Virus record (IMG/VR): IMGVR_UViG_3300042321_001441
Location: 1 to 30,052 of that record
Strand: one strand, 5' to 3'
Source: a virus
DNA: 30,052 nucleotides
The position numbers and the translations under genes were made by a program. The notes beneath the pieces are model-generated. The model saw only the letters and a program-made list of their open reading frames with translations. It did no database searches and had not been told where the DNA came from. Below, one piece after another: positions 8,332-30,013 of this stretch (the first letter of the stretch is position 1; the number at the start of each line of letters is the position of its first letter).

Positions 8332-8561
8332 TGGCTGTCATCAATCAGAGCCCCTCAGGGCAGACCAGCATTGCCATCTCTGGTATCAGCTTCGCCGGGC
8401 TAATGGTCGGCAGCGGCGATCCGTTCCGTGATCCTGCCGTGCGCGTGCAGGATGGTGGTCCCAGTGTTGCCGTCAGCTTCGGTGGGGGCACTGTCGCCCC
8501 TGCCGAGCCCCCGCCAAAGCCGCCTATCCGCAGCTTCCCTAAGCTCCGCGTTCGCTCCTGA
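8331..8561 (+). CDS. Short hypothetical protein, Pro-rich end
   Basis: This 76-residue product is translationally coupled to the preceding gene (TGATG). Residues 1-30 are beta-like and hydroxyl-rich (SGQTSIAISGISFAGL), residues 30-60 Gly-rich, and the end is a Pro run followed by a basic tail (PPPKPPIRSFPKLRVRS). It has no recognisable domain. The alternating strands and its place in the adsorption cluster make a small virion accessory plausible, but the sequence gives no direct evidence of function. Confidence 0.45.
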   Translation: MAVINQSPSGQTSIAISGISFAGLMVGSGDPFRDPAVRVQDGGPSVAVSFGGGTVAPAEPPPKPPIRSFPKLRVRS

Positions 8562-28044: not shown

Positions 28045-28157
28045 GGGGGGAACCGGCCAATGCCGGGCGATGGGGTGGGTCGGCGGCGCGCTCGGCCTGC
28101 CGATGGGCCCAAGGTAGAGGCGCGGCTAACCCACCGCCCCGCACTCGCAACAATCCG

Positions 28158-28559
28158 TCACACTCCCAGGTCGTCGCTCACCCGCGCCGCCGCCGCGCGC
28201 CCTGCGTTCTCGACCAGGTGCGCATACCGCCGCGTGCTCTGCAGGCTGGTGTGCCCCAGCAGCTGGCCCACCACGTCCAGGCCATGCCCCGCGCTCAGCC
28301 CGTAGCTGGCGAACGTGTGCCGCAGGTCGTGCGGCCGGCAGTCCACCAGACCCACCTCATCCCGCAGCTCCTTCCACAGCGAGTGGTAGCCACCCAGCGG
28401 CTGCCCCGGCCGGCCGCCAGCGATCACCCACTCCCCGCCATCCGGGGGCTGCTGCGCACGCAGCTCCTCGAGGATCTCCATCGCCCTGGGCACCAGCAGC
28501 ACCCGCCGGGCACGGCCCGTCCGCCGGCTCCGGCTGGGCCAGGGCAACGATCTGATCAT
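28158..28559 (-). pseudogene. Tyrosine integrase, C-terminal catalytic half only
   Basis: The reading gives a 133-residue product that begins just before the beta-hairpin (RSRRTGRARRVLLVPRAMEI). It contains the C-terminal catalytic set of tyrosine recombinases: HDLRH with His77 and Arg80, LLGH with His103, and RYAHL with the likely nucleophile Tyr112. The N-terminal core-binding domain and the first catalytic Arg are absent; a stop lies immediately upstream of the first Met. Full-length phage integrases are ~330-400 residues. It cannot act alone as a recombinase. The missing part was probably removed when the upstream sequence was joined at the break near 28560. Confidence 0.85.
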
Positions 28560-28791
28560 TCACCGGCTGACCCTCCAGCTCGGCGGCGATGCGCTCCAGG
28601 AAATTCGATGCTGCTTCGATGCCTTCCATGTACTTCGGATGGCAGATGTCGCCGATTAGGCTCATCGTTCTATCCGCAGCAACGCGGAGAGCGGCAGCGG
28701 CCAACGGTGATGCAATAGGGCGCCTATCGGCATCCCACTGTTCAATCACCCCATCCAGCACCGCTTGAGCGGCGAGAGAGAGTTCAGTCAT
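28357..28791 (-). CDS. Chimeric ORF: cyanobacterial-type small protein running out of frame into the integrase
   Basis: Residues 1-75 (28567-28791) look like a complete small protein: MTELSLAAQAVLDGVIEQW, then AAAALRVAADRTMSL and the end FLERIAAELEGQ. I recall a family of ~75-100-residue cyanobacterial proteins that begin MxELSxAAQAVLDA and end IAAELEGQ. Here no stop follows GQ. The frame runs on to 28357 through the integrase region in the wrong frame, giving a low-complexity Gly/Ala tail of 69 residues that is probably not native. This fits a deletion fusing the small gene to the integrase. No ribosome site is clear. Confidence 0.5.
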   Translation of the reverse strand: MTELSLAAQAVLDGVIEQWDADRRPIASPLAAAALRVAADRTMSLIGDICHPKYMEGIEAASNFLERIAAELEGQPVNDQIVALAQPEPADGPCPAGAAGAQGDGDPRGAACAAAPGWRGVGDRWRPAGAAAGWLPLAVEGAAG

Positions 28792-28817: not shown

Positions 28818-28954
28818 AGAGCCCCGATCCGTTCCCACACCGGTCCCACGAATCGCTCTGATCGTGGAGAACGAATCAGGAAAACCGGGGGTTGAATCGG
28901 TCAAAAACGACAGGAAAATCAATGGTTTAGACACTTTGAATTAACCAAGATTAA
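28818..28954. repeat. 137-bp direct repeat, copy 1
   Basis: Identical to 29791-29927 except for one base (C at 28830, T at 29803), with no gaps. Inside are TCCCAC at 28833 and 28844 (11 bp apart), a 6-bp inverted repeat CCACGA/TCGTGG (28846-28851 and 28862-28867), and three GAATC words spaced 23 and 21 bp. It lies next to the broken integrase gene, so an attachment or arm-site role is plausible. Confidence 0.95.
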
Positions 28955-29011
28955 ATAGAACTGCTCAAAATCCCTTTTGATTTCAACAACTTAGCGACCC
29001 TCCAAACTTCT

Positions 29012-29037
29012 GTTCCCACGCAGTTCCCACGCTCAGC
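29012..29037. other. Paired TCCCAC motif (possible recombinase arm site)
   Basis: GTTCCCAC occurs twice (TCCCAC at 29014-29019 and 29025-29030), 11 bp apart, followed by GCTCAGC. Nearly the same arrangement, GTTCTCAC then GTTCCCAC then AGCTCAGC, occurs at 29987-30013. One helical turn spacing fits protein-binding half sites. Confidence 0.5.
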
Positions 29038-29044
29038 GCAACTA

Positions 29045-29061
29045 TTGCGGGTGATCCGCAA
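29045..29061. other. Small inverted repeat
   Basis: TTGCGG (29045-29050) and CCGCAA (29056-29061) form a perfect 6-bp palindrome around GTGAT. It could be an operator or binding site in the gap. There is no T-run for a terminator. Confidence 0.35.
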
Positions 29062-29147
29062 GTATTGGGAGTGATGGCTGATGATGATTTACCGCTGCGA
29101 CACGGTAGACAACTCAGCCATTGAGCCAATGGGCGTTAGCGCGGTGA

Positions 29148-29684
29148 TTAGGAGTTAATAAAAACAGGACGCTCGCAGTTTTCGACCGCCCATCGCAGCC
29201 AATAGGCAAGCCATTCGCCACGTTTGAGGTTGGAATCGTAGATAGGATCGTCTGAAACATCCTCTTCCCTGTAAAAATCGGAGCCCTTTAACAATGGCTT
29301 GGCGTCGGGCTTCGGCGGTGGGTATTGGGCGATGTGATCCGGATGTTTGGCCTTGTAGGCGGCAAGACAGGCTTCGACCTCTTCGACATGTTCAATGGTG
29401 ATCGGCGCGGCCCCGGGGTGGTTAGGTATCAACGGATAGCGTTCTTCCCCGTTGCGCTCAAACCAGCCAGGGGCTCCACTCCGTTCATCGAACATGACAT
29501 GTTTGAGCCCCAAGGCGCTTATTGAGTCGTGCCATGCCGTGTAGGAGGGCCACCGCTGGCTTTGGTGATCGGTTGGTTCACCAAAAGCAGGTGCGTGATC
29601 GAGGCGTTCGACTTTGCAGTCAACCTGAACAAAGTCAGTGCTCCAAGACAGCACTGCTTCTCCGATTTTCAGCGTGTATCCCAT
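29148..29684 (-). CDS. Hypothetical protein between the direct repeats
   Basis: I start it at ATG 29684 (MGYTLKIGEAVLSW), which resembles the usual opening of a phage-associated hypothetical family I recall (GYxLxIGEA, later APAFGEPTDHxxxRWPSYTAW). ATG 29744 would add 20 poorly coding residues. The 178-residue product has conserved-looking motifs APAFGEPTD and RWPSYTAWHD, and an ending RWAVENCERPVFINS. There is no signal peptide or membrane segment. It is the only gene between the two 137-bp repeats and is less GC-rich than its neighbours, which suggests a late arrival. The function is unknown to me. Confidence 0.75.
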   Translation of the reverse strand: MGYTLKIGEAVLSWSTDFVQVDCKVERLDHAPAFGEPTDHQSQRWPSYTAWHDSISALGLKHVMFDERSGAPGWFERNGEERYPLIPNHPGAAPITIEHVEEVEACLAAYKAKHPDHIAQYPPPKPDAKPLLKGSDFYREEDVSDDPIYDSNLKRGEWLAYWLRWAVENCERPVFINS

Positions 29685-29790
29685 GGTCGATGAATTGCGT
29701 TGGTTGGTGGTGGCGGGGCATCCCTGCCCTCGTGAGCCAATCATCCCTCCGACGGGGCCGCTCCGGCAGGGGTTCGTAACAATCCTTCAC

Positions 29791-29927
29791 AGAGCCCCGA
29801 TCTGTTCCCACACCGGTCCCACGAATCGCTCTGATCGTGGAGAACGAATCAGGAAAACCGGGGGTTGAATCGGTCAAAAACGACAGGAAAATCAATGGTT
29901 TAGACACTTTGAATTAACCAAGATTAA
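29791..29927. repeat. 137-bp direct repeat, copy 2
   Basis: A direct copy of 28818-28954 (136 of 137 bases identical), 973 bases away. TCCCAC words lie at 29806 and 29817. Beyond 29927 the sequences diverge, but about 60 bases later both copies again share a TCCCAC pair followed by GCTCAGC. Confidence 0.95.
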
Positions 29928-29986
29928 GTGATGCGCAGGCGTAAAGCCTAGTCGTTCCAACGGGTTACGGGGATCAGCTCAGATCC

Positions 29987-30013
29987 GTTCTCACGTAGTT
30001 CCCACAGCTCAGC
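29987..30013. other. Second paired TCCCAC-type motif
   Basis: TCTCAC at 29989-29994 and TCCCAC at 30000-30005 are 11 bp apart and preceded by GATCC. The order GATCC-GTTCTCAC-GTA-GTTCCCAC resembles the start of the 137-bp repeat. It overlaps the end of a possible minus-strand gene, so a coding explanation for part of it is possible. Confidence 0.45.

Follow-up and report, generated by a model that had tools for sequence, protein, structure and literature searches.

Apparent acquisition of single genes at the integration site of a group of cyanobacterial viruses

Phage genomes are mosaic, and the turnover of their small accessory genes is usually ascribed to illegitimate or homologous recombination. 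The moron and defence hotspots of P2 and P4 are variable accessory loci beside the integrase gene (int), and a 3' tRNA fragment between arms is a common form of phage attachment site (attP). CIMEs, which are seen in the chromosome and belong with site-specific accretion of the ICESt1 type (reviewed in PMC5704250), are integrase-less segments bounded by chimeric attL/attR-type sites that are compatible with those of a neighbour, and they stand in tandem with an integrase-bearing element that has the same attachment site. In the attP of HE-PICIs the crossover is flanked by doubled, co-oriented arm motifs at distances of 81 bp on the upstream and 132 bp on the downstream side (PMC10111431). Integron cassettes are single genes with common recombination ends that lie beside a tyrosine recombinase gene, and attC arrays are also known from phages (PMC9892861). 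Tycheposons, picocyanobacterial elements first described in Prochlorococcus, have a tyrosine recombinase and exchangeable cargo; PMC10872708 describes them as chromosomal, tRNA-borne elements of 4–200 kb with their own recombinase. A limited search of the open-licence literature brought up no account of a single gene enclosed by complete attP-type sites within the attP of a phage, which is a weak negative.

The window analysed here is the whole of an IMG/VR virus record, 30,052 bp long. Two 137-nt direct repeats (28818–28954 and 29791–29927, + strand) are spaced 973 bp start to start and differ only at one position (C at 28830, T at 29803). These figures confirm an earlier sequence-only reading, which had also described a single A/T-richer gene between the copies and a broken integrase gene beside them: the ORF in the interval (29148–29744) has 54.8% GC versus 65.2% for the window, and homology of the integrase gene to its intact relatives breaks off at 28526, leaving the C-terminal third. 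The repeats are very probably the left half, here called X, plus the core of two attP-like sites that surround a 973-bp cassette (28943–29915 from core to core, + strand), which would have been inserted site-specifically at the core of the phage attachment site.

Judged by its sequence structure, the most fitting name for the unit is a minimal, phage-borne cassette of the CIME-like (accretion) type. It shares with CIMEs the absence of an integrase, the tandem arrangement and the chimeric boundary sites, which have core and arm motifs in common; unlike CIMEs, it lies inside a phage genome, is about 1 kb long with one gene, and forms a tandem that is now part of the phage attP region. The doubled, co-oriented arms recall those of the HE-PICI attP, here at 112–127 and 69–71 bp from the core start, but the motif differs, there are two sites per genome and the cassette has no satellite genes. 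In contrast to phage satellites (PICI, P4 and PICMI), the 973-bp unit has no integrase, regulator or replication genes of its own. Exchangeable cargo and tyrosine recombination are shared with tycheposons, whereas the window unit is 973 bp long, lacks a recombinase and has a core that is not a tRNA. As in the P2/P4 hotspots, a variable accessory gene lies beside int and attP; in the window, however, the boundaries are recombination cores, giving a mechanism.

The repeats belong to two larger att-like sites with unlike right halves (28831–29030 and 29804–30005). Each site has a 12-bp core, AACCAAGATYAA, with a doubled arm motif, GTTCCCACnnnGTTCCCAC, on either side. In site 1 the core (AACCAAGATTAA, 28943–28954), which reads TKIK-stop with the next 4 nt, lies between doubled motifs at 28831–28849 and 29012–29030; in site 2 the core (29916–29927) lies between doubled motifs at 29804–29822 and 29987–30005 (all + strand). 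The doubled motif was found four times in the window and the core twice, every match at the repeats, and neither occurred in 100 shuffles. The distance from left arm to core is 112 or 127 bp and from core to right arm 69 or 71 bp, each constant for its type of half. In three relatives (L013, L014 and L016), the doubled motif (GTTCTCAC in L016) lies 2 bp from the start of int and the core begins 127 bp after the start of the doubled motif; in sites whose right half is of the type called Z below, a second doubled motif begins 71 bp after the core. The relatives' site adjoins an int gene that encodes an arm-binding domain, as is usual for the attP of a tyrosine integrase; in the window this gene is truncated. 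Diverged versions of the same arm and core layout are present in L018, L024 and L061, and an extended core search returned mostly chance matches, apart from L061 and the sites already known.

In eleven related phages (L025, L027, L029, L030, L034, L035, L037, L041, L042, L044 and L046), doubled GTTCCCAC arms enclose 3' tRNA fragments, most of them Met-like, with single Lys-like and Arg-like cases (assigned by eye and with ARAGORN). Because the same doubled arms flank 3' tRNA fragments in related phages, the window sites are read as attP; they are attP-like in that arm-type repeats flank a short core. No tRNA was found in the window core, no Rfam RNA element matched the repeat, and terminal inverted repeats are absent. 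Two side observations concern related sites. An att-like site in L036 (752–1046) has a tRNA-Met-like core broken after the anticodon region, and after it come an arm pair and an entire tRNA-Met gene; this may be another chimera. On the reverse strand of L011 (6621–7447), about 830 bp with extra ORFs separate the start of int from the left half of the site, so int and attP are separable also without att duplication.

The relatives used for comparison all come from a viral-contig collection without annotation. Their sites are mosaics of two left halves, W and X, and two right halves, Y and Z, written here with a dot for the core. L011, L013, L016 and L043 have a single site, W·Z; L014 and L017 (two records, identical over 10,134 bp) have the arrangement W·Y-gene-X·Z; the window and L003, a separate IMG/VR record, have X·Y-gene-X·Z. 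All four left/right combinations thus occur, and the partners swap exactly at the core. The 137-bp repeat occurs in two copies since X is the left half of both window sites, and it ends where it does because their right halves differ: site 1 continues into Y (28955–29089, + strand, including the cassette 3' end; 96% identical to L014/L017 over 135 nt) and site 2 into Z (29928–30010, + strand; 96–98% identical to the single-site relatives L011, L013, L016 and L043). W and X are about 34% identical, and Y and Z about 27%. When 110 nt to the left and 69 nt to the right of the core were compared, sites with a common half were 93–100% identical on that side and 26–35%, near random, on the other (X·Y versus X·Z, left 97–100%, right 27.5–29%; W·Y versus W·Z, left 97–99%, right 26–28%; X·Y versus W·Y, left 34.5%, right 97.1%; X·Z versus W·Z, left 33–35%, right 93–97%). 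Such a swap of half-sites at the core is the trace expected when an element with one gene and the site X·Y is inserted site-specifically: a circle carrying X·Y that recombined into W·Z would give exactly W·Y-gene-X·Z. The suggestion that the repeats represent a duplicated attachment region is supported by these chimeric half-sites and by the four relatives with an empty site, W·Z; such evidence weighs much more than two nearly identical copies do. One position of the core is T or C and follows the right half (T with Y, C with Z), except in window site 2, where Z is accompanied by T at 29925. This would fit mismatch resolution within the strand-exchange region; mutation or an assembly slip would also fit.

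Between the window cores there is one plausible gene, and no integrase or transfer genes. The cargo gene encodes 178 aa on the - strand (29148–29684; likely start ATG at 29682–29684, with the ORF opening at 29744). The protein matched nothing in Pfam, PHROG, PADLOC or NCBIfam, and its AlphaFold model was of moderate quality (pLDDT 71) and gave no fold match. By tblastn, homologues of 30–59% identity were found in other viral contigs (L005–L009, 25–80 kb), in which no integrase was detected. Among known phage and plasmid records there was neither similar DNA nor a cargo homologue. L014 has a cassette of 1161 bp with a gene of 277 aa. Its ends are 95–96% identical to those of the window cassette (X over 125 nt, Y over 135 nt), and the two genes have no similarity. 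The L014 cargo model was poor (pLDDT 48), and this type of cargo had a marginal match to a PHROG of unknown function. The proposal that a small mobile cassette makes use of the phage site is supported by the relatives with an empty site and by this second cassette with a different gene and the same ends. A partial case accompanies a tRNA-type core: on the reverse strand of L028 (6287–8272), cargo genes lie between a core-less left arm and a complete left half with the tRNA-type core, and one of them, of 286 aa, has 49% identity with the L014 cargo. One gene family thus occurs at this position with two different cores. Recurrence amounts to two clear cassette lineages with the window core and this one partial case with a tRNA core. 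A free circle or empty junction for the window lineage was not seen.

Upstream of the cargo gene is a short motif, CGTAACAATCCTTCAC (29775–29790, + strand), which is weak on its own (0.49 occurrences expected) and also lies beside other phage genes. Versions around AACAATCC(G/T)TCAC stand upstream of - strand genes at 28146–28161 and 29775–29790 in the window and at 8429–8455 in L003; this recurrent motif may be a phage promoter or operator.

In a tblastn search with the endolysin, all 107 of the 107 records matched in the phage collection were cyanophages (by name, Synechococcus 92, 'Cyanophage' 13, Leptolyngbya 1 and Arthronema 1), so a picocyanobacterial host is likely. In each of the 11 sites, the core together with the bases that follow has the form ACC AAG ATY AAR TRR, which encodes Thr-Lys-Ile-Lys-stop, and the core changes among these sites are synonymous or stop-to-stop only; the 11 sites are related and the pattern was noticed after the fact. 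A TKIK-stop in every site is expected if all right halves, Y and Z as well as the diverged types, supply the end of a host gene after integration. The pattern suggests the 3' end of a protein-coding host gene as attB, a strong hint rather than proof.

Site-specific recombination by a tyrosine recombinase at the core of the phage attachment site is thus proposed to have brought in the cassette. The cassette would be non-autonomous, and its own site, X·Y, would be the attP of an element that targets the same host gene end. Two routes may be envisaged: a free cassette circle with X·Y could have recombined directly into the phage attP, or phage and element could have integrated in tandem at one attB and then been excised jointly, the accretion route described for CIMEs (PMC5704250; also PMC3146451). 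Both routes give the same joints.

An alternative account of the insert is that another phage, which had X·Y as its attP and used the same attB, was integrated in tandem, co-excised and then deleted almost completely, leaving one gene. This concerns the origin of the insert and not the att reading, since the joints and the recombination are the same and only a cassette system would be missing; we regard it as a plausible contender that falls somewhat short of probable. Because Y brings its own TKIK-stop, X·Y resembles a true attP, belonging to an element with the same host gene as its target; X and Y are also AT-richer (47–50% GC) than the phage, and CIMEs are as a rule explained by tandem accretion and later decay (PMC5704250). 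However, two lineages keep ends of equal extent (about 135 nt of Y and about 125 nt of X) around different single genes, which is hard to obtain by repeated independent deletions, and the viral collection yielded no autonomous phage or element of the form int-X·Y.

It is very improbable that illegitimate or homologous recombination simply duplicated a segment with an intergenic or promoter region. Such a duplication would account for 137 nt with one mismatch and for the position of both copies 5' of - strand ORFs, but it leaves unexplained why the unrelated right halves have similarly spaced arm motifs and why X-Z and W-Y are joined exactly at the core in the relatives; an identity of about 34% between W and X is too low for homologous exchange at a 12-bp core. 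As the sole explanation, segmental duplication is refuted by the four-way mosaic.

Collapse or expansion of the repeat during assembly deserves even less credence. The window is a metagenomic contig and the repeat is presumably about as long as one short read, but L003 has both 137-nt copies at the identical spacing, with one difference from the window in 7089 nt, and L014 and L017 show the sister structure with other half-site combinations. The single difference (T at window 29925, C at L003 6962) falls within the att core of site 2. L003 runs about 4 kb further to the right of the repeats; this part has mostly - strand ORFs and ends in an incomplete long ORF. The repeats are thus internal to the phage genome, not at a prophage end; the idea of a third copy at the far prophage end is therefore not supported. 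Nor does the repeat behave as a common dispersed element in the viral collection, where seeds from the X half matched only the window phage and one relative.

The chance that the unit is an integron gene cassette from an attC array on a phage is negligible: one gene per cassette in the same orientation, common recombination sites and a tyrosine recombinase give an outward likeness, but neither site has the R''/R' box pair (RYYYAAC...GTTRRRY) of attC, the relatives' integrase is of the phage type with an arm-binding domain (PF13356) and not IntI, the sites are double-stranded, attP-like and two-armed with direct-repeat arms, every cassette brings a complete site of this kind, and the repeat folded no better than its shuffles (z-scores -0.7 and -0.4).

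The insertion of a cassette at the attachment-site core, the reading we prefer, probably has a further history in the window lineage. The integrase remnant (28158–28559, - strand; PF00589, E = 8e-14 over 13–116; PHROG integrase) is the C-terminal third of a gene that is intact, with 388 aa, in L011, L013, L014 and L016. Its homology to intact relatives, traced by blastn against L011–L017, ends at 28526; a search of the genome contig collection for an intact integrase gave only relatives of 25–36% identity. The L013 integrase has a PF13356 arm-binding domain and a PF00589 catalytic domain. Because the window integrase is without the arm-binding domain and the first catalytic arginine (in the TGCRLRE motif of the relatives), it should be inactive, judging from the known catalytic residues of the family. 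Beyond the breakpoint is a small phage gene (28527–28791, - strand; MTELSLAAQAV...) with its 3' end fused to the remnant. A stretch of it (28573–28782) is 97.6% identical to part of L013, where the small gene sits elsewhere, so a deletion probably fused the gene and int. The small gene is possibly the remains of a first cassette. As X lies beside this displaced gene in the window, two cassettes were probably once in line, and most of the first cassette, together with the W half and the N-terminal portion of int, would have been lost in a later deletion.

Either site-specific or homologous recombination could remove this unit of exactly 973 bp. With a truncated integrase, excision would need help, and release would depend on a helper integrase or on RecA acting on the 137-bp repeats. 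Present-day activity in the window phage is unlikely.

The locus shows a one-gene insertion with both edges at exact recombination cores, and the site without an insert, the half-sites of the donor and a further insertion can all be seen as well. These cyanobacterial viruses thus seem to acquire single genes at their own integration site, a concrete route by which a temperate phage could do so. Further cases could be sought as phage genes that lie between two attP-like sites of unlike halves. It is possible, although doubtful, that the locus represents an integron-like gene-exchange site built on an ordinary integrase, with attP as the landing site for circular single-gene cassettes that each carry a two-armed attP-type site and are stacked, swapped and lost. 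If this were true, phage accessory genes would turn over by site-specific recombination.
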